Assembly (NCBI GenBank): GCA_017522105.1
Contig: JAFXAA010000037.1
Location: forward strand, 1 to 52,154
Length of the DNA: 52,154 nucleotides
Source: Bacteroidales bacterium
Lineage (GTDB): Bacteria > Bacteroidota > Bacteroidia > Bacteroidales > P3
Reading direction: 5' to 3'
Made by a program: the position numbers and the translations under genes. Shown here piece after piece: positions 4,130 through 40,782 of this stretch. The notes under the pieces are model-generated. The model had not been told where the DNA came from and did not search any database. It worked only from the letters and a program-made list of their open reading frames with translations. The stretch's first letter is position 1. The number at the start of each line of letters is the position of its first letter.

Positions 4130-4300
4130 CCCAATGCATCCTCCACGGCTCCGGTACGGCCGTTCTTCAGCCGTGGGGCGTAGTTCCGTCGCTTCCGCAA
4201 CGGCACTTCTTCAGTAGTTCTTCAGTAGTTCTTCAGTCAAACACTGAAGAACTACTGAAGAACTACTGAAGAACGGCCGTAGGGGCTCCGTAGGGGAGAG
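4130..4300. repeat. Composite intergenic repeat with 11-bp-period palindrome (copy 1)
   Basis: Three parts are visible. A 44-bp unit (4163-4206) contains GGGGCGTAGTTCCGTCGC. A palindrome follows with 31-bp arms (4207-4237 and 4243-4273) built from TTCTTCAGTAG 11-mers around the loop CAAAC. A tail of CCGTAGGGGCT 11-mers (4274-4300) ends it. Copies of the palindrome occur at 25219-25285 and 40693-40759, with the loop inverted. The gap 4033-4386 holds only this element and the two divergent promoters. Confidence 0.9.
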
Positions 4301-4330
4301 GGGGCGGATTGGAGTGCCGGGCGAAATATT

Positions 4331-4362
4331 TTTGGTCATGTCGCGGATTTTTCGTATCTTTG
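4331..4362 (+). promoter_or_regulatory. Promoter of the glucan synthase gene
   Basis: TTTGG (4331-4335) and TATCTTTG (4355-4362) match the Bacteroidota promoter consensus. The expected transcription start near 4370 leaves a leader of about 17 nt before the ATG at 4387, with no strong Shine-Dalgarno sequence, which is usual in this phylum. Confidence 0.8.
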
Positions 4363-4386
4363 CACTTTGTTTATAACACACATAAA

Positions 4387-7300
4387 ATGAAGAGTGTATA
4401 CGATATATTCAAGCACGGCGTCAAGGAGATAACTTCATACTACATGCTGCTGGTGGAGGAGACCCGCAGCGAGCGTCTTGTGGGCAGTACCAACGAGTGG
4501 GTGCTCGACAACTACTACATGATCAGCGAGCAGGAGAAGGTGCTGAAGGAGGAGCTGAAGGGCGTGGAGCGAGGGAAGTGGAAGGTGGAGAGCGGACGTG
4601 TGGAGATGCTCTGGAAGTTGCTGGAGAGCTACTTGCGCAAGTGCCACCATCAGATAGACAAAGCCCTGCTGTTCCGCTACCTGAGTCAGGTGCAGCAGCG
4701 CGGCAAGGACTACCTGTCCTACCCCGAGGTGACGGCCCTGCTGCCACTGATGAAGACCATCCTCATCAGCGAGCTGGCCGACCTCTGCCGCCAGCTGCGT
4801 GCCGCCAAGGCCTACCACTACAGGCCCACGGACAAGAGCCAGGCCGACATGGAGCACCTCAACGAGGCCGCCCGTTGGAACCTGCAGATGATGAACATCT
4901 TCAACTCGCTGAAGAAGATGACCAAGCTGCCAATGGCCGAATTGATAGACGCCGTGAGCTTCTCGGAACGCATGCTCAAGGCCGAGAAGGCTGGCATGTA
5001 CGACCAGATGCAGGACAAGACCAAGGAGGACTACCGCGCCCAAGTGGTGAGGCTGTCGAAAAGCGGAAAGTGGAAAACAGAGGGTGGAAAGCCGATGTCG
5101 GAGTATGAGCTGGTGAAGACGCTGGTGGCCCAGGCCGACGGGCGCGGCGAGCATGTGGGGTGGCAGCTCTTCCCGCCCAAGTGGTGGAACCTGCGCGCCT
5201 GCCTCTATATCTGCATTGTCGTGCTGGCCTCGCTGGCGGTAGCGTCGGGGGTGGCGGTGCTGGCCACCGTGGGCGCAGGCCTTTCGTGGCTGACGCTGGC
5301 GCTCACCGTTGTGCTGTGGGTGCCGACGAGCCAGGTGGTGATAGACCTCTTCAACTGGCTGCTGGCCAAGCTGCACCGGCCGCGCGGCACCTTCAAGCTC
5401 AAGTTCAAGGACGGGCTTATCCCCAGCGAGTACGCCACGATGGTCATCATGCCCACCATCCTGAAGAACCGTGCCAAGACCGAGGAGCTGCTGGAGCAGC
5501 TGGAGGTGTACTACCTGAGCAACATAAACCGCGGCGAGGGCCGCGACAGCTTCAGCAACGCCAGCGGCCAGAACCTGTACTACACGCTGATAGGCGACGC
5601 CGCGGCCTACAAGGAGGCCGACGCGCCGTGGGACGACGAGGTGGTGGAGGCCGGCCTGGCCAAGGTCAAGGAGTTGAACGAGAAGTACGGAGCCCCGATA
5701 TTCAATTTCGTATACCGCCGGCGCGCATGGAGCGAGGGCGAGCGCACATGGCTGGGCCACGAGCGCAAGCGCGGCGCCATACTGCATTTCAACGACCTGC
5801 TGCTCGGCCAGACGAGCGACGCGGAGCGTGCCGCACGGTTCCGCTGCGAGACTGTCAGCACCTGGCGCGAGGGCACGGTGCCCGACATACAGTTCGTCAT
5901 CACCCTTGACACGGACACCGAGCTGGTGCTCTACTCGGCGCAGAAGCTCATAGGCGCCATGGCGCACCCGCTGAACCGCGCGCGTCTGAGTGCCGACGGG
6001 CGCCGGGTGGACGGCGGCTACGGCATCATGCAGCCGAGGGTGAACGTCGATGTGGAGGTGACCAACAAGAGCCGCTATGCGCAGCTCTTTGCCGGCCTGG
6101 GCGGCCTTGACGTGTACACCACCGCCAGCTTCGAGCTTTACCAGGACATCTTCAATGAGGGCTCGTTCTGCGGCAAGGGCATCTACGACCTGCGCGTGTT
6201 CCAGAAGGTGCTCAAGGGGGCCTTCCCGCAGAACCTCATCCTGAGCCATGACCTGTTGGAGGGCTGCCACATACGCTGCGGGCTCATCAATGACGTGGAG
6301 CTGTTTGACGACAACCCCTCCAACTATATCGACGACGCCAAGCGCCACCACCGCTGGACGCGTGGCGACTGGCAGATAATCTCGTGGCTGGGGCGCAGGG
6401 TGCGCAACGAAAAGGGCGAGCGCGTGAAGAACCAGGTGAACACCATAGGGCGTTGGAAGATATTCGACAACCTGCGCCGCTCGGTGCTGAGCCTGGCGGT
6501 GATGGTGCTGCTGTTCTTCGGCTACGGTGTGGCTGCGGGCACCGCTGAGCATGTGAGCGCGGCATGGTATGCCCTGGCGGCCCTCGCCGTGGTGGCGAGC
6601 CCCATAGTGTTCTTCATCGTGGGTCAGCTCACCAAGCTGCCCAGCTTCGGCCGCCGCTACAAGTACTACATGACCCTCATGCGCGGCTTCAACGTCATTG
6701 TCTACCGTTCGCTGGTGCAGTTTGCCCTGCTGCCCAAGGAGGCGTGGATGTACACCGACGCCGCCGTGCGCGCCTGCTGGCGCATGTGGGTCAGCAAGCA
6801 CGACCTGCTGGCGTGGATCACCAGCGACGAGGCCGCCAAGAGCACCAAGGGCACACTGGGCGACTACGCGGGCAAGTTCTGGTTCAACTATGTGGCGTCG
6901 GCGGCGCTGGCAGCCCTTGTGTGGCTGGCTATGGCCAACCGCGATGCCGTCACGACGGGCGACATAGTGGCCGCCGTGGCCGCCGCCTGCATGTGCATAG
7001 TGTGGTGCGGCGCGCCGTTCTTCATGTACTGGCTCGGCAAGAAATTCCCGCAGGAGAAGAAGACCCTCTCGGCCAAGGAGACCGAGGAGGTACGCCAGCT
7101 GGCCAAAGACACGTGGCACTTCTTCGACAGCCTCATCGCCGAGGAGAACCATTGGCTGGTGCCGGACAACTACCAGCTGGGGCGCGAGCCGCTGACTGAC
7201 TACAAGACCTCGCCGACCAATATAGGCTATTCGCTCACCGCCGTGGTCAGCGCCGCCGAACTGGGCTTCATAAGCCGCAAGGATGCACTCGGCAGGCTGG

Positions 7301-10300
7301 AGCGCATCGTGGACACCGTCACACGGCTGGAGAAGTGGAACGGACACCTCTTCAACTGGTACAGCGTCGACACCCTCAAGGCATTGCCCAACTTCTTCAT
7401 CAGCACGTGCGACTCCGGCAACTTCGTGGCCTGCCTCTATGTGGTTAAGGGATGGCTGGAGAGTGTGGATGGCGAGGGGCGCGGAGAACGTACCGACGCC
7501 TTGATGGCCAAGGTGCAGCGCCTCATTGACCAGACCGACTTCACCAAGCTGTACAACCATGAGCTCGACGTGTTCAGCATCGGCTACGACACTACGGGCC
7601 ACACTTTGCTGCCATACCACTACAACAACTTCGCCAGCGAGGCGCGCCTGACGTCGTTCCTCACCATCGCCCAGGGCGACGCACCCTACAAACACTGGTT
7701 CTGCCTGGACAAGACCCTGGTGCAATACAAAGGCTACAAGGGAGTTGCGTCGTGGTACGGCACCATGTTCGAGTACTTTATGCCGCTCATCTTCCTGCCC
7801 ACCTTCAAGCACACGCTCATGGACGAGACCTACAGCTTCGCCATCCGTGCGCAGCGCGCCTTCATGCGCAATGCCGGCGAGGAGAACATGCCGTGGGGCA
7901 TCAGCGAGACGGCCTACAACGAGCTGGACGACGCGCAGAACTACAAATACCACGCTTTCGGCGTGCCGTACCTCAAGTTCCAGAATACCACGCCCGACCG
8001 CATAGTGCTCTCGCCATACAGCTCGCTGATGGCCATCGGTGTTGACGACCGCGCCGTCTTTGACAACCTGCAGCGCTTCAAGAAACTTGGCATGTATGAC
8101 CAGTACGGCCTCTACGAGAGCTACGACGACGAAGACCATGTGGCCGTCAAGGCCCACTATGCCCACCACCAGGGCATGATTCTGGCTTCGCTGGCCAACT
8201 ACCTCGGCGATAATTGTCTGCAGCGTTGCTTCATGCAGGAGCCCACCATGCGCAGCATGGAGACACTCCTCAAGGAAAAAGCCCAGGTGAAGCCCTACAT
8301 AGACCTCAAGGTGACGCAGTACAAACGCTACCAATACAGCAAGGTGCAGACCGAGAGCGACGCGCGCGACTTTGACACCATTGCCAACGTGCCGGAGATC
8401 GGCGTCATCAGTAACGGCCAGTACACGGTGCTGATGAACGACCGCGGCAGCGGCTTCTCGCGCTACAAGAACATCATGCTGAGCCGTTACCGCAAGATAA
8501 GCGCCGACCACTACGGCACCTATCTCTATGTGCGTAACTTGCGCACCGACAAGCTGTGGTGCAACACCTACGCACCGCTGGATGTCATGCCGGAGAGCTA
8601 TCATGTCAGCTTCGCCAGCGACAAGATGAGTTACCTTCGTGTGGACGATGGCGTGGAGACCAAGACCGAAGTGACGGTGCTGAAAGACCGTAGCGCCGAG
8701 CTGCGCCGCGTGACCTTCACCAACAGCAGCGGACAGGATGTGGACTTGGAGATAACCACCTACGGCGAGGTGCTGCTGGCCCCTGCCGTGGAGGATGAGA
8801 ACCACCGTGTCTTTGCGGGAATGAAGGTGCTGTCGGAATACGACGCCGAGCACGAGGCACTGCTCTTCAGCCGCCCCGGCGACCACGGCAGCCGCCGGTA
8901 CATGCTGCACAAGCTGTGGACAGAGAATGAAGAGTTGCGGACTAAGAATGACGAATCGGCTTTCGCGGATAAGAACTCTTCCATAATAGAATATGAGACC
9001 TCGCGCCTCAAGTTCCTTGGTCGCGGCAACAGCCTGCGCCATGCAGACATCATAGAGAGTCGACGCACGCTGACGGGCACAGTGGGCACCACCTTGGACC
9101 CCATTATGAGCATGCGTCGCCGCCTGCATGTGGCTGCCGGCAAGAGTGTGGAGGCTTATATCCTCACCGGCTATGCCAAAGCCCGCGAGCAGTTGCTGCA
9201 CCTCACCGAGCAGTATCAGGGCTCTGTGGATGTGGAGCACGCTTTCAAGACGGCCTCCGTCTTCAACAACATGCGCACCAGCCTCTCCCTCCTCAAAGGC
9301 AGCCAGATGCGTCTCTACTGCAGCATGGCCAAGTATATGGCTCAGACCGCTACCCTCGGCAACGACCGCAACGCCCTTCTTGCCAAGAACACCCTTTCGC
9401 AGAGTGGCCTATGGCGCTTTGGCATCAGTGGCGACCTCGACATCATCCTTATGGAGGTGGACAGCATGGAACATAGCGGCCACGCCAAGGAGATGCTTCG
9501 GGCTTTCGAGTACTACAAGGTGCATGGCTTGTACCTCGACCTTGTCTTTATCAACGATGCCCCAGAAGGGGAGCGCGACGGCCTGACGCACTTCATCAAC
9601 GGTATGGCCAACACCGAGCACCTCTGGGCCGAGCACAGCCATGCTGGCCGCGTCTATGTGCTCAACGGCAGCGACATTACTGATGCAGAACGCATACTGC
9701 TGCACACCGTGGCCCGCCTGGCGTTCAATACCAGTGACGGCATCACCCTGGCGCAGCAGCTGCGCCGCCTCGAAGTGGCCAACCAGCGCTACCAGGACAA
9801 GATAGAATACCCTGTGCTCAAGCCCCGCAAGGAGTTTCGCGTGTGGAGCGGTCTGGAGTTCTACAACCAGTACGGAGGCTTCGACCGCGACGGTCGCGAC
9901 TATGTGGTGACCAACACCAACACCCCCATGCCGTGGATTAACGTCATGGCTAACGAGCAACACTTCGGCTGCATAGTCAGCTCCACCATGGCGGGCTTTA
10001 CCTTCGCCAACAACGCCCAGCAGTTCAAGCTCACCGGCTGGAGCAACGACATAGTGCGTGACAACGCCAGCGAGATGCTTCTCATCAACAGGCACCAGTT
10101 CCTGCCGGCTACGGCGCGCCACAGCCAGGGCTGGTCGGCTTTCGACGCCGAGTATGACGACCTCACCGTCGCTGTGCGCCTCTTCGTGGCCTGCGACAAG
10201 CCAGAGAAATACTACCAGATACGTCTCACCAACAAGACGGAAGCCCCTGTGGACGTACGGCTCGACATGGTATACAAGCTTGTCCTCGGCATGTGCGAGG

Positions 10301-12108
10301 AGCAGACCGCACGCTATCTCTACTCCGAGTGGGACGAGGCCACCAACAGCCTCCTCGTCCGCAATGTCTATCACCCCATCTACAGCAACCAGGTCGTTCG
10401 CCTTACGGCCACAGAGCCGCTGACCGACATCAGCCTCGACTATACCAACCGCAAGCGCCTCGGCTTCAATGTCAACCTTCCCGCCCATGGCGAGAGGCTC
10501 GTTGCCTTCATCATCTCGGTGGATAAGGAGGCTGGCGCTCGCGAGAACAGCGAGCCGGCGTATCAACGTTTAGACGTGCCTGCGATTGACTCCGAGTTTG
10601 ACCGCGTTGTGGCCTACTGGGACGACAAACTCTCCGCCATACAGGTGGAGACCCCGGACCGCTCGTTCAACCACATGGTGGGCCGCTGGTATCTCTACCA
10701 GGTCTATGCTTCGCGCCTCTTTGCTCGCGCAGGCTTCTATCAGGTGGGTGGAGCCACGGGCTTCCGCGACCAGCTGCAGGACGTAATGTCACTCCTCTAC
10801 AGCGACCCGGCCTACGCACGCCGCCAGATTCTCGACCATGCCGCCCACCAGTTCCCCGAAGGCGATGTGCTGCACTGGTGGCACGAGAGCCTCCACCTCG
10901 GCGCCCGCACCACCTTCAGCGACGACTACCTCTGGCTCGTCTTCGTGACCTATCAGTATGTCACCGTCACTGGCGACACCGCCATCCTCACCGAGGAGGT
11001 GCCCTTCTGCCATGCCGACCAGCTGGCCCCCGGTGAAGCCGAGCGCGGCATGCAGTTTGGCTATGCCGAAGCTTCGCCAGCCACGCAAAGCACACTCTAC
11101 GAGCACCTGCGCCGTGCCGTCAACCGCTCCATGTCGCGCATAGGAGCCCACGGTCTGCCCCTTATGGGCTGTGGCGACTGGAACGACGGCATGTCCACCG
11201 TTGGTGTCGAGGGCAAGGGCGAGAGCGTATGGGTGGCCTTCTTCCTGGCCGACCTACTGCCCAAGATGCAGCGCCTCACGGAGTTTATGCCCGGTGCCGA
11301 CCTTGCTTGGTGCGAGGAACTCTCGGCTTTCCGCAGCCGCATTGTCGACGCACTGCAGCACTCTGCATGGGATGGAGCATGGTTCCTCCGCGCCTATTTC
11401 GACAACGGCGACCCCATGGGCAGCCGCAACAACACCGAGTGCCAGATTGACCTCATCTCGCAGGCCTGGGCCATCCTCACCGACGTGGCTACTCCGGAGC
11501 AGAAACAGAGTATCTTCCGCGAGACAGACCGCCGCCTTGTCAACCGCGAGCACGAAATCATACAGCTCCTCACACCGGCTTTCCGCGACTCCAAGCCATC
11601 GCCGGGATACATTGCCAACTATCCCGTGGGTGTCCGCGAGAACGGTGGCCAGTACACGCACGGCGCCATGTGGTACATCATGGCAAAGCTCCATGCCGAC
11701 ACGCATCAGTCCTCATTGAAGGACGAGGCCTATTACCTCTACTCCATCATCAACCCCATACATCGCACACTGTCCCTTGCCGACGTGCTCAAATACAAGG
11801 TGGAACCATATTGCATAGCGGCCGACATCTACTCCAACCCGCAGCATCCGGGACGCGGCGGCTGGACGTGGTACACCGGTTCTGCCTCCTGGGCCTACAA
11901 GACCGGCATCGAGAATATCCTCGGCTTCCACAAGCAGGGCGACAGCCTAACCGTAAGTCCCAGCGTGCCTTCCGACTGGCCCGCCTTCATCCTGCGCTAC
12001 CGCTATGGCAGTACTACCTATGTGTTCCATTACACCCGAGGCACCTCGGCGCCCTCCGTCACTGTCGACCTCGTCGACGACGGACAGACACACGAAATCA
12101 ACATCTGA
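4387..12108 (+). CDS. Cyclic beta-1,2-glucan synthase-like protein (GT84 + glycoamylase-like + GH94 domains)
   Basis: A 2,573-residue multidomain membrane glycosyltransferase, slightly shorter than rhizobial NdvB or Brucella Cgs (about 2,830-2,870). The chosen ATG is the first after the promoter. The order is a helical N-terminus, membrane helices near residues 267-328, and a GT84 domain with the DTDTE nucleotide-sugar motif (about 507) and RHHRWTRGDW (about 652). More membrane helices follow (about 698-750 and 832-886). Next is a glycoamylase-like domain containing AHHQGMILASL (about 1259), which performs cyclisation in known synthases. The GH94-type phosphorylase domain comes last, with catalytic GDWNDGM (about 2262) and GWTWYTGSASW. 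In characterised relatives UDP-glucose is polymerised, length-trimmed and cyclised at the inner membrane. Linkage and cyclisation are inferred here. Repeat-derived stretches lie at 4568-4606, 5056-5100 and 8926-8984. Confidence 0.88.
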   Translation: MKSVYDIFKHGVKEITSYYMLLVEETRSERLVGSTNEWVLDNYYMISEQEKVLKEELKGVERGKWKVESGRVEMLWKLLESYLRKCHHQIDKALLFRYLSQVQQRGKDYLSYPEVTALLPLMKTILISELADLCRQLRAAKAYHYRPTDKSQADMEHLNEAARWNLQMMNIFNSLKKMTKLPMAELIDAVSFSERMLKAEKAGMYDQMQDKTKEDYRAQVVRLSKSGKWKTEGGKPMSEYELVKTLVAQADGRGEHVGWQLFPPKWWNLRACLYICIVVLASLAVASGVAVLATVGAGLSWLTLALTVVLWVPTSQVVIDLFNWLLAKLHRPRGTFKLKFKDGLIPSEYATMVIMPTILKNRAKTEELLEQLEVYYLSNINRGEGRDSFSNASGQNLYYTLIGDAAAYKEADAPWDDEVVEAGLAKVKELNEKYGAPIFNFVYRRRAWSEGERTWLGHERKRGAILHFNDLLLGQTSDAERAARFRCETVSTWREGTVPDIQFVITLDTDTELVLYSAQKLIGAMAHPLNRARLSADGRRVDGGYGIMQPRVNVDVEVTNKSRYAQLFAGLGGLDVYTTASFELYQDIFNEGSFCGKGIYDLRVFQKVLKGAFPQNLILSHDLLEGCHIRCGLINDVELFDDNPSNYIDDAKRHHRWTRGDWQIISWLGRRVRNEKGERVKNQVNTIGRWKIFDNLRRSVLSLAVMVLLFFGYGVAAGTAEHVSAAWYALAALAVVASPIVFFIVGQLTKLPSFGRRYKYYMTLMRGFNVIVYRSLVQFALLPKEAWMYTDAAVRACWRMWVSKHDLLAWITSDEAAKSTKGTLGDYAGKFWFNYVASAALAALVWLAMANRDAVTTGDIVAAVAAACMCIVWCGAPFFMYWLGKKFPQEKKTLSAKETEEVRQLAKDTWHFFDSLIAEENHWLVPDNYQLGREPLTDYKTSPTNIGYSLTAVVSAAELGFISRKDALGRLERIVDTVTRLEKWNGHLFNWYSVDTLKALPNFFISTCDSGNFVACLYVVKGWLESVDGEGRGERTDALMAKVQRLIDQTDFTKLYNHELDVFSIGYDTTGHTLLPYHYNNFASEARLTSFLTIAQGDAPYKHWFCLDKTLVQYKGYKGVASWYGTMFEYFMPLIFLPTFKHTLMDETYSFAIRAQRAFMRNAGEENMPWGISETAYNELDDAQNYKYHAFGVPYLKFQNTTPDRIVLSPYSSLMAIGVDDRAVFDNLQRFKKLGMYDQYGLYESYDDEDHVAVKAHYAHHQGMILASLANYLGDNCLQRCFMQEPTMRSMETLLKEKAQVKPYIDLKVTQYKRYQYSKVQTESDARDFDTIANVPEIGVISNGQYTVLMNDRGSGFSRYKNIMLSRYRKISADHYGTYLYVRNLRTDKLWCNTYAPLDVMPESYHVSFASDKMSYLRVDDGVETKTEVTVLKDRSAELRRVTFTNSSGQDVDLEITTYGEVLLAPAVEDENHRVFAGMKVLSEYDAEHEALLFSRPGDHGSRRYMLHKLWTENEELRTKNDESAFADKNSSIIEYETSRLKFLGRGNSLRHADIIESRRTLTGTVGTTLDPIMSMRRRLHVAAGKSVEAYILTGYAKAREQLLHLTEQYQGSVDVEHAFKTASVFNNMRTSLSLLKGSQMRLYCSMAKYMAQTATLGNDRNALLAKNTLSQSGLWRFGISGDLDIILMEVDSMEHSGHAKEMLRAFEYYKVHGLYLDLVFINDAPEGERDGLTHFINGMANTEHLWAEHSHAGRVYVLNGSDITDAERILLHTVARLAFNTSDGITLAQQLRRLEVANQRYQDKIEYPVLKPRKEFRVWSGLEFYNQYGGFDRDGRDYVVTNTNTPMPWINVMANEQHFGCIVSSTMAGFTFANNAQQFKLTGWSNDIVRDNASEMLLINRHQFLPATARHSQGWSAFDAEYDDLTVAVRLFVACDKPEKYYQIRLTNKTEAPVDVRLDMVYKLVLGMCEEQTARYLYSEWDEATNSLLVRNVYHPIYSNQVVRLTATEPLTDISLDYTNRKRLGFNVNLPAHGERLVAFIISVDKEAGARENSEPAYQRLDVPAIDSEFDRVVAYWDDKLSAIQVETPDRSFNHMVGRWYLYQVYASRLFARAGFYQVGGATGFRDQLQDVMSLLYSDPAYARRQILDHAAHQFPEGDVLHWWHESLHLGARTTFSDDYLWLVFVTYQYVTVTGDTAILTEEVPFCHADQLAPGEAERGMQFGYAEASPATQSTLYEHLRRAVNRSMSRIGAHGLPLMGCGDWNDGMSTVGVEGKGESVWVAFFLADLLPKMQRLTEFMPGADLAWCEELSAFRSRIVDALQHSAWDGAWFLRAYFDNGDPMGSRNNTECQIDLISQAWAILTDVATPEQKQSIFRETDRRLVNREHEIIQLLTPAFRDSKPSPGYIANYPVGVRENGGQYTHGAMWYIMAKLHADTHQSSLKDEAYYLYSIINPIHRTLSLADVLKYKVEPYCIAADIYSNPQHPGRGGWTWYTGSASWAYKTGIENILGFHKQGDSLTVSPSVPSDWPAFILRYRYGSTTYVFHYTRGTSAPSVTVDLVDDGQTHEINI
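8926..8984. repeat. Degenerate heptad inverted repeat in frame inside the glucan synthase gene
   Basis: Arms AATGAAGAGTT (8926-8936) and AACTCTTCCAT (8974-8984) are inverse with one mismatch. Between them, GAATCGGCTTTCGCGG (8953-8968) differs by two bases from GAATCGGCTGACGCGG at 1872-1887 in the GH97 gene. It encodes a charged low-complexity segment between conserved parts of the protein. It appears to be an older, decayed copy of the element in the GH97 gene. Confidence 0.6.
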
Positions 12109-12425: not shown

Positions 12426-12504
12426 GCGTTGCCGCAAAGTGCTGTGTTATAATGCGCTGCGAATGGGTGATTTCTTGAAACCCTTGCAGGCACTGCAAAC
12501 CGAC

Positions 12505-12618
12505 GGAGTCCCTTCGGCCCCCCTACGGCTCCCCTTCGGCCTTCCTTCGGCCATCGTCGCCCGGGATGCGATAGAAAGGCCGTACAGGGGGCGTGGAAGC
12601 TCCGTTGAGACCCCGTAG
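12505..12618. repeat. Intergenic inverted repeat with degenerate 11-bp-period arms
   Basis: The left arm is a run of 11-mers (GGAGTCCCTTC, GGCCCCCCTAC, GGCTCCCCTTC, GGCCTTCCTTC). A spacer of about 25 nt follows. The right arm is roughly inverse (GGCCGTACAGG ... CCCCGTAGGGG). The 11-mers are of the same kind as those flanking the palindromes at 4207, 25219 and 40693, but the loop differs. It fills most of the 203-bp gap between the convergent genes ending at 12425 and 12629 and may serve as a bidirectional terminator. Confidence 0.7.
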
Positions 12619-12628
12619 GGGCTTGATT

Positions 12629-13597: not shown

Positions 13598-13679
13598 GTG
13601 TGGAGTTGGTGGTGGGTGAAGTGTAGCGGCCAGAGGATTGGTGTATGGCTGTCAGGTGCTGCCAGCTGCCGACTGCCCA

Positions 13680-14428: not shown

Positions 14429-14433
14429 ATAAA

Positions 14434-24385: not shown

Positions 24386-25003
24386 TTACCCCTTGAACAG
24401 GCTGTTGAACTCGGCGTCTATGCGGTTGATGATGTGTCCCAGGTCTTCGCGGTTCTCCACGAAGTCGCACTCCTCCATGTCCACCACCAGCATCTTGCCC
24501 TCGTAGTTCTCGGCCCACTGCTCGTAGCGGTTGTTGAGGTTGGTCAGATAGTCCAGTCTGATGCCCGTCTCCAGCTCGCGGCCGCGCTTCTGTATGTGGC
24601 GTATCAGCGTCGGCACGTCGCACTTGAGGTATATCAGCAGGTCGGGCTGCGGCAGCAGCGAGTAGGTCATCTCGAAGAGTTCGGTGTAGGTCGTCAGGTC
24701 GCGCGTAGTCATCAGGCCCATGCTCTGCAGGTTGGGGGCGAAGATGTAGGCGTCGTCGTAGAGCGAGCGGTCGCGGATGAAGCTCTCGCCCGAGGCGTGC
24801 AGCTCGTCGAGCTGCTTGAGGTTCGAGTAGAGCGAGTACACCATCATGTTGAACGACCACCGGCGCATGTCCTCATAGAAGCTGTTGAGGTATGGGTTCT
24901 CGTCCGTTGTGCCGGAGATGGCCTTGTAGCCGTAGTGCTTCGACAGCAGCATGGTCAGTTCTGTCTTGCCGGCCCCTATATTGCCTGAAATTGCTATCTG
25001 CAT
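24386..25003 (-). CDS. Deoxynucleoside kinase
   Basis: 205 residues. P-loop GNIGAGKTELTMLLSKHYG at the N-terminus, then ENPYLNSFYEDMRRWSFN (the substrate Glu and Arg region), ESFIRDRSLYDDAYIF (the D/E-R-S catalytic motif), and a lid region with QKRGRELE. This is the dNK/dGK-type family that phosphorylates deoxynucleosides for salvage. The exact base preference cannot be read. It is the first gene of a minus-strand run that continues through kdsB to the mgtC-like gene. A -7-like TATATTTG element lies at 25086-25093. Confidence 0.92.
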   Translation of the reverse strand: MQIAISGNIGAGKTELTMLLSKHYGYKAISGTTDENPYLNSFYEDMRRWSFNMMVYSLYSNLKQLDELHASGESFIRDRSLYDDAYIFAPNLQSMGLMTTRDLTTYTELFEMTYSLLPQPDLLIYLKCDVPTLIRHIQKRGRELETGIRLDYLTNLNNRYEQWAENYEGKMLVVDMEECDFVENREDLGHIINRIDAEFNSLFKG

Positions 25004-25085: not shown

Positions 25086-25093
25086 CAAATATA
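25086..25093 (-). promoter_or_regulatory. Candidate -7 element upstream of the deoxynucleoside kinase operon
   Basis: TATATTTG on the minus strand matches TAnnTTTG. I see no good -33 TTTG at the proper distance. It would give a leader of about 75 nt. Confidence 0.45.
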
Positions 25094-25196
25094 CGACTAT
25101 TTTTTGATTTATTAATATTTTGTGCACTTTTTTTGCAACTTTTTTCTGTTTTTGCCGTCCGCCGCCGCCCTCTGCGCCACCGATTTCCGCCGGCAC

Positions 25197-25307
25197 CCCT
25201 ACGGAGCCCCTACGGCATTTCTTCAGTAGTTCTTCAGTAGTTCTTCAGTGTTTGACTGAAGAACTACTGAAGAACTACTGAAGAAATGCCGTAGGGGCTC
25301 CGTAGGG
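25197..25307. repeat. Perfect 111-nt palindrome with 11-bp-period arms (copy 2)
   Basis: Perfect 53-bp arms (25197-25249 and 25255-25307) surround the loop GTTTG. The outer part is two CCCCTACGGAG-type units, and the inner part is TTCTTCAGTAG 11-mers. Compared with copy 1 (4207) the loop is inverted. It lies in the 447-bp gap between divergent genes. Nothing else is seen in this gap except the promoters and T-rich tracts. Confidence 0.92.
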
Positions 25308-25377
25308 ACTCCGTGGGGAATCGGCGGGGGAAAGGAGAAAATATTTGTGTTTTTATGTCTGTTTTGTATTTTTTTTG

Positions 25378-25385
25378 TATCTTTG
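25378..25385 (+). promoter_or_regulatory. Candidate -7 element of the nadC operon
   Basis: TATCTTTG is a perfect -7 match. The -33 region is T-rich but lacks a clearly placed TTTG. The leader would be about 58 nt and holds a short possible stem near CCCCGAAGGCTCGGAG (function unknown). Confidence 0.6.
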
Positions 25386-25450: not shown

Positions 25451-26296
25451 ATGATGAAGATTGACAATCTCGACGAACTGATAGTTATGGCCTTGCGCGA
25501 GGATGTTGGCGACGGCGACCACTCCACCCTGGCCTGCATTCCGCCCGACGCCGTGGGCACGGCCAAGATGGTGGCCAAGCAGGAGGGCATCCTGTGCGGT
25601 ACCGAGGTGGGACGGAGGGTGTTCCAGATTGTGGACGCCAGCCTTGAGGTGAGCCTGATGAAGCACGACGGCGACGCCGTGGCCAAGGGCGACATCATCA
25701 TGACCGTCACAGGGCACAGCGGCTCCATCCTCACCGCCGAGCGCACGGCGCTGAACTTCATGCAGCGCCTCTCGGGCATCGCCACGGAGACCCACCGCAT
25801 GGTGCTGATGCTCGACGGCCTGCACACCAAGCTCCTCGACACCCGCAAGACGACACCGAACATGCGCCTGCTGGAGAAATACGCGGTGCATTGCGGCGGC
25901 GGCACCAACCACCGCATAGGCCTCTACGACATGGTGATGCTCAAGGACAACCACATCGACTTTGCCGGCGGCATCGAGGCCGCCATCGACCGCACGCACA
26001 GCTACCTGAAGGCCAAGGGAAAGAGTCTGCGCATAGAGATTGAGGTGCGCGACCTCGACGAGCTGCAGCGCGTGCTGGACCACGGCGGCGTGGACCGCAT
26101 CATGCTCGACAATTTCACGCCGGAGCTGCTTACCGAGGCCGTGAAGCGCATCGGCGGCCGCTACGAGACCGAAGCCAGCGGCGGCATCACCGAGGCCACG
26201 CTGCGCCGCTATGCGGAGACGGGCGTGGACTTCATCAGCGTGGGTGCGCTGACGCACCATATCAAGAGCCTCGACATCTCGCTGGTGAAGAAGTGA
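25451..26296 (+). CDS. nadC: Nicotinate-nucleotide pyrophosphorylase (carboxylating), quinolinate phosphoribosyltransferase
   Basis: 281 residues, the normal NadC size. DVGDGDHSTLACIP at the N-terminus, TAERTALNFMQRLSGIAT, the phosphoribosyl-binding DTRKTTPNMRLLEKYAV, and GGGTNHRIGLYDMVMLKDNH in the active site. The C-terminus has EASGGITEATLRRYAETGVD, typical of the alpha/beta-barrel phosphate site. It converts quinolinate and PRPP to nicotinate mononucleotide in de novo NAD synthesis. It leads a plus-strand run with the YihY-like gene, the methyltransferase and queG. Confidence 0.97.
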   Translation: MMKIDNLDELIVMALREDVGDGDHSTLACIPPDAVGTAKMVAKQEGILCGTEVGRRVFQIVDASLEVSLMKHDGDAVAKGDIIMTVTGHSGSILTAERTALNFMQRLSGIATETHRMVLMLDGLHTKLLDTRKTTPNMRLLEKYAVHCGGGTNHRIGLYDMVMLKDNHIDFAGGIEAAIDRTHSYLKAKGKSLRIEIEVRDLDELQRVLDHGGVDRIMLDNFTPELLTEAVKRIGGRYETEASGGITEATLRRYAETGVDFISVGALTHHIKSLDISLVKK

Positions 26297-30560: not shown

Positions 30561-30581
30561 TATTCCGCATTCTCACTGCAT

Positions 30582-30618: not shown

Positions 30619-30680
30619 GTCATGGTGCACAATTTAAGCCGGAGAAAGGCGTTAATCGGTATGCATAAAACAACAGTTAA

Positions 30681-34360: not shown

Positions 34361-34366
34361 GGGTGG

Positions 34367-35701: not shown

Positions 35702-35714
35702 TCATTACGGTTAT

Positions 35715-35749
35715 AACAAATCCGCCACCGGCGGGGTGGCGGATTTGTT
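35715..35749 (-). terminator. Terminator hairpin between the C1 peptidase and DUF2130 genes
   Basis: AACAAATCCGCCACC (35715-35729) and its inverse (35735-35749) flank CGGCG. On the minus strand the stem is followed by a short U-containing run, fitting termination of the peptidase transcript. Confidence 0.75.
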
Positions 35750-35767
35750 CGTCACTGGCGTGGCGGT

Positions 35768-37030
35768 TTATTTCTTTTTACCCTTTTTGGCAGGGGCTTT
35801 GGCGCTGTCCTGGATGCCGAGTTTGGCCTTGATGGCGGCGGGGATGGCGTCCTTGTGGACAACGATGTTCATGGTCTTGTAGCGGGCAAATGCTTTGCTG
35901 ACGAAGAAGTTGCCGCCGAACTCGCCGTTGTACTTGCCCCAGCTGTTCTTCACCATGTAGTACTCGTTGCCCATCTGATCCTTGGCCTTGCCAAAGATGA
36001 GCATGCCGTGGTCGTCGGTGGTCTCCCAGTTGTCGTAGGCCTGCTGGCGCTCCTCTTGGGTCACCCAGCGCTGCGGTGTGGGGTGCTTGGCGGCCTCGTC
36101 GGCAATTTCGCTGGCGCTCATGCCGCTCCACTTAGCCTGGTCGCTACCAACCTTGGCGGCAGCTTTGCCGTCGGTGGCCGGCAGGACGGCGAAGCCCTTG
36201 CGGGTGTAGCGGAAGCCCTGCTCGCTGACGTCAGAGCCCCAGGCGATGGTGTAGCCGTTGTCGATGGCGTAGTCGAAAATCTCCATCATCTCGTCCAGAG
36301 GCACGTTATAGCTCTGGCCCCAGCGCCAGTTGTCCTGAATCTCGAGGACGAAGGGCTCGTAGAAGGGGTGATGGGTGTAGGAGGTGATGCTGACGTAGTC
36401 ATCGGGGTTCAGGCCGAGGCTCTCGCCGAAGCTCTTGGGGGTGTACTCGACGCCCTTGTAGTTGAACTTCTCGGGTATCTTGCCGAGGTAGGTCTCGTGG
36501 ACGGCCTGGACGGCTTTGAGCCACAGGGGCTGGCCGTCGGGGCTGTACTGCAGCTTCTTCAGTTTGCCTTTGGCCACGGCCTCCACCATCACGTCGGTCA
36601 GGGCGCTGAGCTCGGTGTGGTTGCTCAGGGTGTCGCCGTAGGCGGCGCCGGCGGGCATCACCTCGTCGGGCACCATGCCGTAGTGCTTGAGACAGTAGAT
36701 CACATCGTTGAAGGCGCCACCCTGGCTGAAGCTCACGTCGCCGTGGGTACGCACGGCGGCCATGGCACGGTCGTTGTAGGTCTTCTCGACCACGTACATC
36801 TCGCTCAGGTCGTACTCGCCCTTGCCCAGGCGGAGCAGCTCGGCCTCGAGGAAGGCGATGCCGCTGTAGCTCCAGCAAGTGCCGGCATTGTTCTGGTCTT
36901 TGACGGAGGTAACGGGGATCACCTTCACGGTGTCAAACTTGTAGCCCTCGTCCTCTTTCTTCTCCTCCTGTGCTAACACGGAGGTGGCGCAAATGGCAAT
37001 GGCGCCAAGGGTCAGGAATGCTTTTTTCAT
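35768..37030 (-). CDS. Secreted C1-family cysteine peptidase (aminopeptidase C / bleomycin hydrolase type)
   Basis: 420 residues with a type I signal peptide (ending SVLAQ). The catalytic set is complete: Gln46 and Cys52 in VKDQNNAGTCWSYSG, His in DDHGMLIFG and Asn in YMVKNSWGKY. The sequence between matches the bleomycin-hydrolase-like branch (SFSQGGAFNDVIYCLKHYGMVPDEVMP). The C-terminus is Lys-rich (KAPAKKGKKK). Classical PepC is cytoplasmic, but Bacteroidales commonly carry this exported version, which probably trims peptides in the periplasm or outside. A consensus promoter lies 48 bp upstream. Confidence 0.92.
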   Translation of the reverse strand: MKKAFLTLGAIAICATSVLAQEEKKEDEGYKFDTVKVIPVTSVKDQNNAGTCWSYSGIAFLEAELLRLGKGEYDLSEMYVVEKTYNDRAMAAVRTHGDVSFSQGGAFNDVIYCLKHYGMVPDEVMPAGAAYGDTLSNHTELSALTDVMVEAVAKGKLKKLQYSPDGQPLWLKAVQAVHETYLGKIPEKFNYKGVEYTPKSFGESLGLNPDDYVSITSYTHHPFYEPFVLEIQDNWRWGQSYNVPLDEMMEIFDYAIDNGYTIAWGSDVSEQGFRYTRKGFAVLPATDGKAAAKVGSDQAKWSGMSASEIADEAAKHPTPQRWVTQEERQQAYDNWETTDDHGMLIFGKAKDQMGNEYYMVKNSWGKYNGEFGGNFFVSKAFARYKTMNIVVHKDAIPAAIKAKLGIQDSAKAPAKKGKKK

Positions 37031-37077
37031 TAGTATGTAATTGTTTGTTATTATTTATTTGTACTAAAAATGCGGTG

Positions 37078-37109
37078 CAAAGATACGACAATTATTTGTA
37101 CTGGCCAAA
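37078..37109 (-). promoter_or_regulatory. Promoter of the C1 peptidase gene
   Basis: On the minus strand TTTGG (37105-37109) and TATCTTTG (37078-37085) are about 19-20 nt apart, a near-perfect consensus. Confidence 0.8.
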
Positions 37110-37115
37110 TCTTTT

Positions 37116-38093
37116 TTACATCGCATCAATGACGGTGGTGTCGTGCTTGCCTTTGACGATTGTGTTGTATTCCGTGCCCTTCTTGGTGGGTATGCGCACC
37201 TTGTAGCTCTTGCCGTCCTTGTTCTTCAGTTTGTCGGTGGTAATCCACGGGTTCATGGTGCGCACCATCTTGTAGCTCGTGCCGTTGTCTGCGGCGAACT
37301 GCACGAGGTCCACGTTCTGTCCGCCGAGCGTCACCTCCTCGTAGGGCAGCTCGGGGTATGTGTCGCAACGGCGCACCGTGTAGCCGTAGTCCTGCGGGTG
37401 CTGCATGATGAGCTTCAAGGCCAGTATGCGGTACACGTAGCGCTGCGTCTCGCGGTTGAGCATCAGCTCGTAGTAGCTCTTCTGCCGCTGGTTGGCGAGG
37501 CGCTTCTCCAAACCGTTCTCTCCGCAGTTGTAGGCCGCTGCGGCCTCCGTCCAGCCCCCGAAGCGGCGCTTCAGCTCCTTGAGGTAGCGGCAGGCGGCGC
37601 GGGTCGACGCTTCGAGGTCGTTGCGCATGTCAATCTCCTCGCTTATCTCCAGCCCGTAGGTCTGTCCCGTCGACTTCATGAACTGCCAGTAGCCCTGTGC
37701 GCCAGCGGGCGAGGTGACGTTCTGCAGGCCGCTTTCTATGACGCAGAGGTACTTCATGTCCTGCGGCACATGCTCTTCCTTCAGTATGCGCTCTATGGTG
37801 GGGAAGACGCGCGCGGCGCGCTTGATGTTGAAGAGCGTGTTGCTCTGGTAGTACATGTTGCTCACCAGCTCACGGTCCAGCCCTTCGCGCACATACCACA
37901 GGTTGAGCGGCACGCGCTCGCCGCAGAAGTACAGCGTGTCGGGCATCGGCGGCGCGTAGACGTGGTAGCCGGCGCGTATGGCCTTGGTCAGTATCTCGTC
38001 GCTGTTGTCCTCCTTGCGGGTGGCGAAAATAAAGGCCTCGCCTGCTATAGCCAGCGAAGCCAGTATAATAGCTATTATTGATAGCTTCTTCAT
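37116..38093 (-). CDS. Lytic murein transglycosylase with C-terminal LysM-like segment (MltD-like)
   Basis: 325 residues from the ATG at 38093, which overlaps the coaBC stop (ATGA). A signal anchor (LSIIAIILASLAIAGEAFIFA) is followed by an SLT domain with the catalytic Glu in CVIESGLQNVTSPAGAQGYWQFM and the AAAAYNCGENGL motif. The C-terminus has a degenerate LysM-like segment (VDLVQFAADNGTSYKMVRTMNPW). It cleaves peptidoglycan strands in the periplasm. It ends the bamD / omega / coaBC operon, in the position where other Bacteroides carry a DUF4835 gene or recN. Confidence 0.9.
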   Translation of the reverse strand: MKKLSIIAIILASLAIAGEAFIFATRKEDNSDEILTKAIRAGYHVYAPPMPDTLYFCGERVPLNLWYVREGLDRELVSNMYYQSNTLFNIKRAARVFPTIERILKEEHVPQDMKYLCVIESGLQNVTSPAGAQGYWQFMKSTGQTYGLEISEEIDMRNDLEASTRAACRYLKELKRRFGGWTEAAAAYNCGENGLEKRLANQRQKSYYELMLNRETQRYVYRILALKLIMQHPQDYGYTVRRCDTYPELPYEEVTLGGQNVDLVQFAADNGTSYKMVRTMNPWITTDKLKNKDGKSYKVRIPTKKGTEYNTIVKGKHDTTVIDAM

Positions 38094-39259
38094 GTCGTTA
38101 CGGTGTTGATTATAAGTTGCGCCACCTCCTGCTTGCTCAGCAGGGGGCTCTCCGTGCAGCTGCCGTCGCGGCCTATGATGTACACCTTGTTGGTGTCCAC
38201 GCCGAAGCCGGCGCCTTTGTCGCGCAGCGAGTTGAGGACTATGTAGTCGAGGTTCTTCTTCTCCAGCTTGCGCTGGGCGTTGGCCTCCTCGTTGTCGGTC
38301 TCCAGGGCGAAGCCCACCAGCGTCTGCCCTTCGTGTTTCATGCCGCCGAGGGTGGCCAGTATGTCGGGGTTCTGCACCAGCTCCAGGGTCATGCCCTCCG
38401 AGCCGTTCTTCTTCAGCTTGTGGTCGGCGCACTCCGCCGGACGGTAGTCGGCCACGGCGGCCGAGAGGATGGCCCCGTGGCAGCGGGGGAACACCTCGGT
38501 GGCGGCGGCGTACATCTCGCGGGCGCTCTCCACGCGGATGAGGTGTATGTGTGGATTGGCGGCGTTGAGGCTTGTGGGGCCTGTCACCAGCTCCACCTTG
38601 GCACCGGCGCCGGCCAGCGCCTCGGCCAGGGCGAAGCCCATCTTGCCGCTGCTGTAGTTGCCTATGAACCGCACGCTGTCGATGCGCTCGTAGGTGGGCC
38701 CTGCCGTGACGAGCCACCGTTCGCCGTTGAGTTTCAGTGTTGCGCCCTCGCCGATGGCGTCGACAATCTGCTGCGGTTCAGCCATGCGGCCCACGCCGCT
38801 GACGCCGCAGGCCAGCTCGCCCTCTGCGGGGCCTACCATGCGTATACCCCACGACTTGAGCGTCTCCACGTTGCGCTGCACGGCGGGGTGCGCCCACATC
38901 TCGCAGTTCATGGCTGGGGCCATGACCACTGGTTTGCCCGAGAAGGCCAGCAGCAGCGTGCTCAGCGCGTCGTCGGCTATGCCGGAGGCCACCTTCCCTA
39001 TGATGTTGGCCGTCGCCGGGGCCACCACCAGCATCTCGCCCCAGTCCTTGAGCGAGATGTGCTCGGTGCGCCCCGAGGCGAAGAGGTCGCTGTACAGCGG
39101 CGCCCCGGAGACCGTCTCCAGGGTCACCCTCGTGACGAACTCCAAAGCATGCTCTGTGGCGGCACACCGCACCTCGTGTCCTGCCTTCTTCAGCAGGCGC
39201 ACCAGCTCCGGCGCCTTGTAGGCCGCTATGCCTCCCGTGATGCCGACGATGATCTTCAT
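38090..39259 (-). CDS. coaBC: Bifunctional phosphopantothenoylcysteine decarboxylase / phosphopantothenate-cysteine ligase
   Basis: 389 residues. The decarboxylase half (1 to about 180) shows the flavin loop VVAPATANIIGK, the active-site His in EHISLKDWGE, APAMN, and the catalytic Cys in ACGVSGVGRM. The ligase half has VTAGPTYERIDSVRFIGNYSSGKMG, with the conserved Lys, and VDTNKVYIIGRDG. It catalyses two successive steps of coenzyme A synthesis in the cytoplasm. Its stop overlaps the transglycosylase start by 4 bp. Heptads (39264-39300) fill the 32-bp gap to the omega-like gene. Confidence 0.97.
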   Translation of the reverse strand: MKIIVGITGGIAAYKAPELVRLLKKAGHEVRCAATEHALEFVTRVTLETVSGAPLYSDLFASGRTEHISLKDWGEMLVVAPATANIIGKVASGIADDALSTLLLAFSGKPVVMAPAMNCEMWAHPAVQRNVETLKSWGIRMVGPAEGELACGVSGVGRMAEPQQIVDAIGEGATLKLNGERWLVTAGPTYERIDSVRFIGNYSSGKMGFALAEALAGAGAKVELVTGPTSLNAANPHIHLIRVESAREMYAAATEVFPRCHGAILSAAVADYRPAECADHKLKKNGSEGMTLELVQNPDILATLGGMKHEGQTLVGFALETDNEEANAQRKLEKKNLDYIVLNSLRDKGAGFGVDTNKVYIIGRDGSCTESPLLSKQEVAQLIINTVTT

Positions 39260-39291
39260 TGCCTCGCTATCGCATTAACGCATTGTCACAT

Positions 39292-39666
39292 TCACGCGTT
39301 CTCCTTCATCACCTCTTCTTCCATGGCCTCGAAGCGGGCTGCCTGCTGGTCCTCCTTGGCGGGGTTGCGGTAGTAGATCTGTCCTTCGAGGTATTCCTCC
39401 GTGGCTTCGAGTGTGGGTTTGGGCATCTGCTCGTAGCGGCGCACAATCTCAATCTGCTCGCGGTTCTCGAACATCTCGTCCACGCCGTCGCCGCTGCTGC
39501 GGAAGTCGTCGATGCGGCTGTGCAGCTCCTTCTTCTCTTCGGCGGCAATCTGGTTGGCGCGTTTGGTGAGCATGGCCACGGTCTCGTAGATGTTGCCGGT
39601 CTGGCGGCTGAAGTCTGCCGTGTTGCGGGTGATGGTGGTGTTGATGACTTTCTTTTTCTCTTCCAT
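39292..39666 (-). CDS. Omega-like RNA polymerase subunit (Bacteroidota RpoZ type)
   Basis: 124 residues from the ATG at 39666 (MEEKKKVINTTITRNTADFS). The segment GNIYETVAMLTKRANQIAAEEKKELHSRID matches the omega core (x-R-x-x-x-V-A-x-R-A-x-x-I), and its place between bamD and coaBC is the standard locus in Bacteroidota. The acidic tail (EAMEEEVMKENA) is a family feature. Omega promotes RNA polymerase assembly. The stop codon lies inside a short run of heptad repeats. Called mainly on context plus the short core motif. Confidence 0.82.
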   Translation of the reverse strand: MEEKKKVINTTITRNTADFSRQTGNIYETVAMLTKRANQIAAEEKKELHSRIDDFRSSGDGVDEMFENREQIEIVRRYEQMPKPTLEATEEYLEGQIYYRNPAKEDQQAARFEAMEEEVMKENA

Positions 39667-39683
39667 TGCTGTTATGTGGTTTT

Positions 39684-40487
39684 TTATTTTTCCATTTTTG
39701 CCAAGGCCTCGCGGGTCTTGGTGTATATGTCCTGCGCGTCGGCCAGCTGTTTGGGGTCGGTGATGCCGCTCACCACGCGGTCGAAGTCCGCCACCACCTG
39801 CTGCAGGCGCTCGCGCTTCTTGTCCTCGCGGCTGTTGATGGCATATTTGTAGCCCGAGTGCAGCATGTAGTACATGGCGTCGCTGCGCATGGGCGCCTCG
39901 GGGTAGAGGTTGATGAAGTTCTTGAGGCTCTCGTAGGCCGCGCGGTATTCCTCTATGAAATAGTAGCCATAGGCTATCTCGTAGTCCTTCTTCATGAGCT
40001 TGACGCGCATCTCGTCGAGGTAGCGGTTCACCTCGGGCATGCGCGTGCTGCGCGGCCACCGCTCGGCGAAGGCCTCGAACTCCTCGATGGCCTCGCGCGT
40101 GAGGCTCTGGTCCAGCGTGTAGCTCGGCGACTCCATGTACTTGCAGTAGGCCGAGAGGAAGGAGGCCTCCTCCACGCGTTCGCTGTAGGGGAACTGGCGC
40201 GCGAAGCGTTTGAACTGGTAGCCTGCGGTGAAGTAGTCCTTCTCCTTGTACAGCGCCTGGCCGTAGTACCACGATATCTCCTCGGCGTTGTCGCGCCCGC
40301 GGTAGTGCAGCGTCAGGTTCTCAAACAGCTGGATGGCCTTCGAGTAGCTGTTGTCGTTGTAATACTGCATCGCTGCCTGGTACTTGGCATCGTAATCGTT
40401 GCTCTTCAGTATCTTGTCGAACTTGTTGCAACTCGTTAGCAGCAAGACTGTTGCAAGGATATTCAGGATAAATGCGCCCTTTTTCAT
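39684..40487 (-). CDS. bamD: Outer-membrane assembly lipoprotein BamD
   Basis: 267 residues from the ATG at 40487, with lipobox LLLTSC and five TPR-like repeats, e.g. YNDNSYSKAIQLFENLTLHYRGRDNAEEISWYYGQALYKEKDYFTAGYQFKRFARQFP. It is the periplasmic lipoprotein partner of BamA in folding outer-membrane proteins. Its Bacteroidota neighbours (omega-like, coaBC) support the call. The -7 element ends 6 nt before the start codon, so the mRNA is probably leaderless or nearly so. Confidence 0.93.
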   Translation of the reverse strand: MKKGAFILNILATVLLLTSCNKFDKILKSNDYDAKYQAAMQYYNDNSYSKAIQLFENLTLHYRGRDNAEEISWYYGQALYKEKDYFTAGYQFKRFARQFPYSERVEEASFLSAYCKYMESPSYTLDQSLTREAIEEFEAFAERWPRSTRMPEVNRYLDEMRVKLMKKDYEIAYGYYFIEEYRAAYESLKNFINLYPEAPMRSDAMYYMLHSGYKYAINSREDKKRERLQQVVADFDRVVSGITDPKQLADAQDIYTKTREALAKMEK

Positions 40488-40493
40488 AGGGTG

Positions 40494-40527
40494 CAAAGAT
40501 ACAACTTTTTTTTAAACTGCGTGCAAA
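40494..40527 (-). promoter_or_regulatory. Promoter of the bamD operon, placed for a leaderless mRNA
   Basis: On the minus strand TATCTTTG (40494-40501) lies 6 nt before the bamD ATG, with TTTG at 40524-40527 (spacing about 22, slightly long). Transcription should begin at or within a few bases of the AUG. Confidence 0.65.
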
Positions 40528-40592
40528 TAATTTAAAAATGGCCCTTTGCTGCGGTGCTGTCTGTCCGCCCATGGCGCCTGTCGCCACCACCT

Positions 40593-40782
40593 CCCCTACG
40601 GCATTTCTTCCGCCGGGGGGCGTAGTTCCGTCGCCTCCGCGACGGCACTTCTTCCGCCGAGGGGTGTAGTTCCGTCGCCTGCGCGACGGCACTTCTTCAG
40701 TAGTTCTTCAGTAGTTCTTCAGTGTTTGACTGAAGAACTACTGAAGAACTACTGAAGAAATGCCGTAGGGGCTCCGTAGGGG
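40593..40782. repeat. Composite intergenic repeat: two 44-bp units plus palindrome (copy 3)
   Basis: Two 44-bp units at 40605-40648 and 40649-40692 (TTCTTCCGCCG ... GTAGTTCCGTCGC ... GACGGCAC) are followed by the palindrome with 31-bp arms (40693-40723 and 40729-40759), loop GTTTG, and a CCGTAGGGGCT tail. 44 is four times 11. The left flank resembles copy 1 (4163-4206). The loop and right flank resemble copy 2 (25197-25307). It fills the 403-bp gap between divergent genes. Confidence 0.9.

Follow-up and report, generated by a model that had tools for sequence, protein, structure and literature searches.

The window analyzed here is a 52,154-nucleotide contig (JAFXAA010000037.1, C37) of the Bacteroidales bacterium assembly GCA_017522105.1 (G000), a 2.28-Mb draft in 38 contigs that is 92% complete. 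It contains three copies of a large palindrome with arms of tandem 11-bp units around a 5-nt loop. These are best read as hairpins at sites shared between species and rewritten species by species, not as the products of a loop inverter. The architecture is best explained as tandem 11-bp-unit arms around a short loop, placed inside an older, more diverged scaffold that also runs in 11-bp steps. With a little better than even confidence we favor interspersed palindromic satellites at inherited intergenic sites, which would be homogenised within each species by exchange from the hairpin centre, a mechanism that we infer from the comparisons below.

The three copies carry identical 31-bp arms (4207-4237/4243-4273, 25219-25249/25255-25285 and 40693-40723/40729-40759) made of TTCTTCAGTAG units, as reported in the first-pass annotation of the window. 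Re-reading of the sequence confirmed the loop as CAAAC in the first copy and GTTTG in the other two. The perfect 53-bp arms of copy 2 (25197-25307) were reproduced, as were the 44-bp units on the left, a single one at copy 1 and a pair (89% alike) at copy 3. The 12-mer TTCTTCAGTAGT had 12 matches in the window at ≤1 mismatch vs 0.05 expected in shuffles, and the DNA folding z-scores of the three copies were −15.0, −24.6 and −15.6; together these exclude chance. Window genes (42) were predicted with a self-written small hexamer gene finder and all were scanned against Pfam. None matched a transposase or recombinase family at E ≤ 1e-5, in agreement with the annotation, and 6 had no Pfam match at all. 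No RNA families or tRNAs were found in the window.

A genome-wide search for the tandem units, proposed in the annotation, placed the window palindromes in a high-copy extragenic family. A 22-mer of two units occurred 81 + 79 times in G000, and a core-and-loop pattern allowing ≤2 mismatches matched at 67 places (36 and 31 in the two orientations). Seventy cores were read, none within a predicted gene; the true copy number may differ from this count, and a single physical copy read at two contig ends could have been counted twice. Contigs of G000 often start or end in or near an element (C8, C16, C18, C20, C21, C25, C28, C31, C35 and others). As G000 is a draft in 38 contigs, the orientation assigned to the loop at any one site is subject to the assembler. 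The loops read were CAAAC (36), GTTTG (30), GCCGC, GCGGC, ATCCG and GTTAG (1 each). The 22-mer had no match among viral contigs, and a viral origin was rejected on this basis.

All nine copies with the arm variant ACTGAAATAC carry it on the same side of CAAAC, with no mirror form present, so the loop moves with its inner arm; this linkage, as read from the sequences, speaks against a loop that flips freely by itself. The 44-bp unit was found directly outside one arm only, with no G000 element carrying it on both sides. With the unit placed on the left, the loop read CAAAC in 17 elements and GTTTG in 9, and a core can therefore stand either way in its scaffold. The annotation had suggested that the stem-loop is inverted, copied or templated by some activity. 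Copying or templating is supported by cores that are homogenised genome-wide, are species-specific and move as units. Inversion of the loop alone is not needed: since the arms are palindromic, a core can enter either way round without a loop-inverting enzyme, and the loop has no fixed orientation with respect to the 44-bp unit.

The exact 22-mer was detected in 6 of 190 genomes of the family, all of one genus. Named records among the matches listed were uncultured Bacteroidales metagenome-assembled genomes (MAGs), for example RUG061 (G072) and a roe-deer rumen MAG (G039). The RUG061 set comprised at least 49 elements after 7 cores of other organisms were removed from the 56 read in named loci. 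RUG061 has the arms of G000 and different loops, the commonest in the 56 cores among the matches listed being GCGGC (15), GCCGC (8), GCTGC (7), GCAGC (6), GTGGC (4) and GCCAC (3). The loop of RUG061 is nearly palindromic, so its two 'orientations' often differ by one base. The four cores read in G039 had the loops CTTTG, CAAAG, CGATG and CATTG.

G000 and RUG061 sites were paired by flanking sequence with 120 bp masked around each core. Among the matches listed, 38 of the 49 RUG061 elements paired with a G000 element site, 23 of them on both flanks, and none of the 38 pairs had identical loops. A candidate loop inversion at the shared site C10:3222 (GCGGC vs GCCGC) was dropped as a single base change. 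Non-recent orthologs were then compared with random between-species pairs by gapped alignment outward from the arms in 11-bp bins. Identities in the first four bins were 0.74, 0.67, 0.60 and 0.58 for orthologs vs 0.80, 0.70, 0.60 and 0.58 for random pairs, so that within ∼44 bp of the arms orthologs resemble each other no more than random pairs do. Ortholog identity was slightly higher at 44-88 bp outside the arms (0.63, 0.62 vs 0.57, 0.58) and clearly higher from 88 bp outward (0.72-0.75 vs 0.53-0.57). The first 11 bp outside the arms were identical on 6 of 67 orthologous sides, with a random-pairing mean of 5.1. The two G000 elements whose loops are of the RUG061 type are embedded in sequence ∼97-99% identical to RUG061, suggestive of recent transfer.

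The comparison of orthologous gaps that the annotation had proposed between strains was performed between species, and often returned the same sites with different text. For the element 2 gap, which lies upstream of nadC, the best 30 of ∼118 loci were utilized (29 from relatives plus that of the window). An 11-bp-periodic stretch (44-bp window, match ≥0.6) was present in 21 of the 30 loci, and so in 20 of the 29 relatives, vs 0/30 shuffles; the stretches vary widely in sequence and include both palindromic and direct arrays. At site 3, a palindromic 11-bp array was present in 9 of 13 relatives (G072, G082, G086, G102, G095, G050, G096, G048 and G042), comprising six unit types. The periodic stretch in G091 was non-palindromic, and no array was seen at this site in G099 (229 bp read), G079 or G040. 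At site 1, an array was present in 5 (G072, G082, G095, G086 and G050) of 10 relatives with the neighbouring region read; the neighbour genes are on separate contigs in G072, G082, G096 and G091. Judged from these assemblies, sites are largely common to related species and the text at each site is replaced species-specifically.

Array text is species-specific elsewhere in the genus as well. A 22-mer of G042 had 45 + 48 matches in G042 and a 21-mer of G096 had 63 + 47 in G096, each with 0 matches in the other 119 genomes of the genus. Period 11 was the commonest strong period in the gaps of G000 and likewise in a survey of 17 further genomes, where lag-11 values ≥0.6 were recorded in 3 of 29 divergent, 8 of 38 tandem and 5 of 18 convergent gaps. 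For a comparison of arm units, 16 were chosen by eye from 15 genomes; read towards the loop, they agreed at 6.46 of 11 positions vs 5.58 in shuffles (0/500), and a reduced set of 10 units at 5.89 vs 5.49 (0/500). The 16 units have a consensus of about TTCTWCRRTWG, and their likeness beyond shuffles probably reflects common ancestry or constraint.

G000 also contains a second family with TTGTTCTACGG units (36 + 36 pattern matches), some copies of which sit within the same outer scaffold as the first family. The pattern was found in G086 (22 + 26), G095 (4) and G102 (7 in all), and had 0 matches in the other 116 genomes of the genus, G072 included. A chimera at C10:191284-191364 combines a TTGTTCTACGG-family left arm with a TTCTTCAGTAG-family right arm, the two meeting at the loop. 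In the copy at C3:37846-37922 the loop of a first-family palindrome is occupied by a piece of second-family sequence. A core swap was located at C3:42271, where G000 has a second-family palindrome and the RUG061 counterpart a first-family palindrome with TTCAACGATAC units; the two genomes share 87% identity in one flank (1.6 kb) and 98% in the other (1.2 kb), and hardly differ in the adjoining coding ends. As far as assembled sequence can tell, the loop and inner arm of a core stay linked, and in two recombinant copies the junction falls at the centre of the palindrome.

Homogenised centres, a diverged outer scaffold, unit-wise movement either way round and central junctions together suggest that exchange begins at the hairpin centre. 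Exchange would start at the centre of the hairpin or cruciform, by breakage or by replication template switching at the tip. The core of another copy would then serve as template, in either orientation owing to the palindromic arms. Through repeated templating each genome would converge on its own core and loop, with copies within one genome overwriting one another from the middle outwards. A broader version is held more tentatively, at somewhat less than even confidence: that these are genus-wide bacterial interspersed satellites, with position, period and hairpin inherited and the text at most sites rewritten by a centre-initiated copying activity. Among eukaryotic satellites, concerted evolution of dispersed repeats is a familiar phenomenon; to our knowledge, clear bacterial cases of inherited sites with wholesale sequence swap are scarce. 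If the proposed exchange is real, within-genome homogenisation becomes measurable in bacteria, utilizing two families per genome, natural chimeras and related species that share sites. It also prompts one to ask which process copies a hairpin into others whose arms differ yet keeps the 11-bp step, and warns that palindromes in draft genomes and at contig ends can conceal such systems.

Gap classes were assigned for the 57 of 70 G000 elements with both neighbours; 13 at contig ends with one neighbour were excluded. First-family elements were in 50 divergent, 7 tandem and 0 convergent gaps, and so not at gene ends, the location expected of intrinsic terminators. In 332 kb of G000, adjacent gene pairs were 29 divergent, 252 tandem and 28 convergent, and gaps of ≥150 bp were 27 divergent, 27 tandem and 6 convergent. 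Fourteen 20-kb G000 stretches were partly picked to contain elements and give gap-class base rates, not element density. The divergent bias (50/57 vs 27/60) has a Fisher p of 9e-7. RUG061 elements among the matches listed were 31 divergent, 12 tandem and 0 convergent, with 6 of the 49 without a gap class. The motif TAnnTTTG, which we take to be the Bacteroidetes-type −7 box, was present on both sides of 22 of the 50 divergent G000 elements vs 0.18 in base shuffles, with none inside the 115-bp core. Most first-family copies in the window's lineage lie between divergent promoters and are probably not transcribed by the flanking genes. They could perhaps act there as a torsional buffer or insulator.

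Several points weigh against the exchange reading. All genomes in the comparison are draft assemblies. Two recombinant copies are few, and homologous arms, microhomology and a dedicated enzyme would each fit the present data. Ordinary gene conversion leaves unexplained both the entry of a core with unrelated arms into a site and the constant 11-bp unit length. Left and right link dinucleotides agree in 35 of 64 G000 elements (mean 24.4 by chance), with no excess in RUG061 (16 of 45, mean 21.6). Some CAAAC/GTTTG sites also have one flank 96-98% identical to RUG061, so that transfer of the elements with RUG061-type loops is only suggestive. The divergent bias is not general: second-family sites in G000 were 5 divergent and 7 tandem of 12, sites in G042 were 3 divergent, 7 tandem and 1 convergent of 11, and the 20 places in G096 (one element counted twice) were 7 divergent, 8 tandem, 4 convergent and one unassigned.

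The survey of SbcD, a subunit of the palindrome-cutting nuclease SbcCD, also belongs here. SbcD was above cut-off in 57 of 120 genomes of the genus. It was not above cut-off in G000, G072, G042, G096, G040, G086, G095, G102 or G082, G000 having a below-cut-off match only. In a test on 57 sampled genomes that ignored shared ancestry, 11-periodic palindromes were found in 8 of 30 genomes without SbcD vs 2 of 27 with it (G100 and G029; p = 0.083), and maximum palindrome score vs SbcD gave p = 0.06. The SbcD-positive G044 has an 11-periodic palindrome in its nadC gap. Better survival of long palindromes without SbcCD is thus a trend in these genomes and not significant. SbcCD was rejected as the breaking nuclease, given the below-cut-off match in G000 and the non-significant association with SbcD loss.

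Rather than being copied by exchange, the palindromes could be non-autonomous elements resembling miniature inverted-repeat transposable elements (MITEs), with a putative hairpin-recognising enzyme inserting new cores into old palindrome centres, youngest innermost. We regard this as unlikely. It would account for cores within older scaffolds with their parts kept together, for scaffolds without cores, for the second family in the same kind of scaffold in some copies and for new families with unlike arms in G042 and G096. However, no enzyme candidate was found, Y1 transposases being the only kind searched genus-wide. A single near-empty site was compared (site 1, G102 vs G095), where outer units seem kept and there is no clean insertion point, and no clean empty site with a target duplication was seen. 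RUG061 arms with TTCAACGATAC units are often one-sided, not symmetrically nested.

The arrays could alternatively be binding sites for a regulator or chromosome organiser, with one helical turn per 11-bp unit, protein and units coevolving and the sites under selection; we give this a similarly low probability. The prevalence of period 11 in G000 and 17 relatives, the shared likeness of the arm units read towards the loop, the position between back-to-back promoters in G000 and the sites common to species are all in its favor, although related units are also expected from shared ancestry alone. Genome-wide sequence change between species whose flanks still align at ∼72-99% and the central chimeras speak against it, and elements of G042 and G096 are not restricted to promoter regions.

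Spread by a single-copy Y1 transposase, as in systems of repetitive extragenic palindromic (REP) sequences with a REP-associated tyrosine transposase (RAYT), had been anticipated in the annotation and is very improbable. REPINs too form hairpins and spread within genomes, according to the part of PMC3116915 available. The search for a single-copy Y1 gene did give one Y1_Tnp match each in G000 (C31:24109-24450) and G072 (C24:14934-15275), but neither is flanked by the palindrome family and both lie among other repeats; a degenerate solo arm is ∼1.1 kb from the G000 gene. Y1_Tnp matches occur in 73 of 120 genomes of the genus, yet none was found in G040, G096, G086, G102 or G082, all with 11-bp palindromic arrays, where single absences from drafts 81-97% complete are not proof. 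REPs lie mainly between unidirectional and convergent open reading frames (PMC3733652, available text), unlike the mostly divergent first family of G000. Dependence of the palindromes on a RAYT-like enzyme is thus unsupported. The surroundings of the two genes (L181:3500-4600 in G000 C31 and L182:3700-4600 in G072 C24) contain each genome's own tandem REP-like repeats, with CCAGCCGTTGAAACGGCTGG plus 80-83 bp direct repeats, ACCCCTACGGGGTCG in 53-bp units and ACCCCATAGGGGTTTCAT in 55-bp units. These genes and their repeats are perhaps a true RAYT system apart from the palindromes.

Assembly artefact, in which short-read assemblers collapse 70 similar hairpins onto a dominant core and place loops at random, is scarcely credible: identical arms exceeding a small k-mer do give ambiguous loops and several contigs end within elements, but site-specific variants persist (ACTGAAATAC, GTTAG, ATCCG, GCNGC), many loops are retained in RUG061 and several separately assembled genomes have the same architecture with different text.

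The known kind to which the family belongs is that of dispersed extragenic palindromes, of which it is a variant. In the literature on repeats and palindromes, with subscription journals and preprints outside coverage, the only close architectural match among the papers listed was the LIMP repeats of the Lobosphaera incisa mitochondrial genome. The accessible portion of PMC4524435 describes tandem short units in both arms and an invariant loop in either orientation about equally often, always in intergenic positions, with imperfect units adjoining some copies. LIMP repeats differ in having 5-bp units, a 7-nt loop and 19 copies in an algal organelle (PMC4524435), and that portion of the report contains no comparison of shared sites with replaced text such as is given here. 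The shared features are a likeness of architecture that does not imply common descent. REPs and REPINs are likewise high-copy dispersed extragenic palindromes forming hairpins (PMC3116915, PMC3733652, both in part), but the present arms are 11-bp tandem arrays and the Y1 genes are not flanked by the palindrome repeat. In the elements looked at, GTAG, a tag found at one end of such stem-loops, did not mark an end. The BrickBuilt MITE of Porphyromonas gingivalis is also an intergenic Bacteroidales repeat with internal tandem units, but has, in the available text of PMC4596501, 23-nt direct repeats between leader and tail segments, terminal inverted repeats and no tandem-unit palindrome. CGTC-type REPs resemble the family as short palindromes without an associated transposase, Bacteroidetes included; they are short stem-loops with a CGTC tag at one end, and no 11-bp array architecture is described in the part of PMC3733652 consulted.

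The neighbours of the window elements are ordinary: SstT (a serine/threonine transporter), a GH94-type protein, a deoxynucleoside kinase (dNK), nadC, a BamD-like lipoprotein and one unknown. Feature positions are given in Table 1.

Table 1. Palindromic elements, scaffolds and promoter boxes of the window
Feature	Position	Strand	Basis or setting
Element 1 with outer scaffold, loop CAAAC at 4238-4242	4139-4297	.	Between divergent genes 2782-4032(-) and 4387-12108(+)
Core of element 1, 31-bp arms of 11-bp units + 5-nt loop	4207-4273	.	Sequence, DNA fold
Single 44-bp (4 x 11) unit, left of core 1	4163-4206	+	Sequence
Element 2 with outer scaffold, perfect 25197-25307, loop GTTTG at 25250-25254	25169-25335	.	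Sequence, DNA fold; between dNK-like gene 24386-25003(-) and nadC 25451-26296(+)
Core of element 2	25219-25285	.	Sequence
Element 3 with outer scaffold, loop GTTTG at 40724-40728	40585-40790	.	Sequence; between bamD-like gene 39684-40487(-) and gene 40921-41610(+)
Core of element 3	40693-40759	.	Sequence
Two 44-bp units left of core 3	40590-40677	+	Direct repeat D1
−7 box (TAnnTTTG) of left gene, site 1	4061-4068	-	Sequence; genome-wide test
−7 box TATCTTTG of right gene, site 1	4355-4362	+	Sequence; genome-wide test
−7 box of left gene, site 2	25086-25093	-	Sequence; genome-wide test
−7 box TATCTTTG of nadC, site 2	25378-25385	+	Sequence; genome-wide test
−7 box of left gene, site 3	40494-40501	-	Sequence; genome-wide test
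−7 box TATCTTTG of right gene, site 3	40846-40853	+	Sequence; genome-wide test
Scaffold without TTC core, CCCCTACGGAG units + facing partners, divergent gap 49546-49885	49705-49822	.	Lag-11 match 0.73
Scaffold without TTC core, convergent gap 12426-12628	12500-12620	.	Lag-11 match 0.73

Further observations were made in individual genomes. In G021 (L199) the nadC gap is interrupted by a run of N precisely where two facing 11-bp arms would meet, so palindromes of this kind can be broken or concealed by assembly. Six tandem TTCTTCAGTAG copies form a direct array near contig ends of the Burkholderiales MAG MJ1_bin-0510 (L089:8-73 and L119:113-178), bounded by the short inverted ends CCTCCGT / ACGGAGG; these direct arrays have no palindrome and may be coincidental. 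G029 (L328, C9:1-20000) has GTTGTTCAGTC units around the inner core TTCAGT-CAAAC-ACTGAA, the same as in the window. Many diverged copies resembling the window element (∼72-96% identical pieces) were seen in G082 and G048, and are perhaps an ageing state of the family. One site of G096 (L296) has two cores in tandem. Close to several elements (L043, L085, L107, L129, L136 and others) there is a second family of short hairpins, of the type GAACCCCGTCGGGGTTCCAT.

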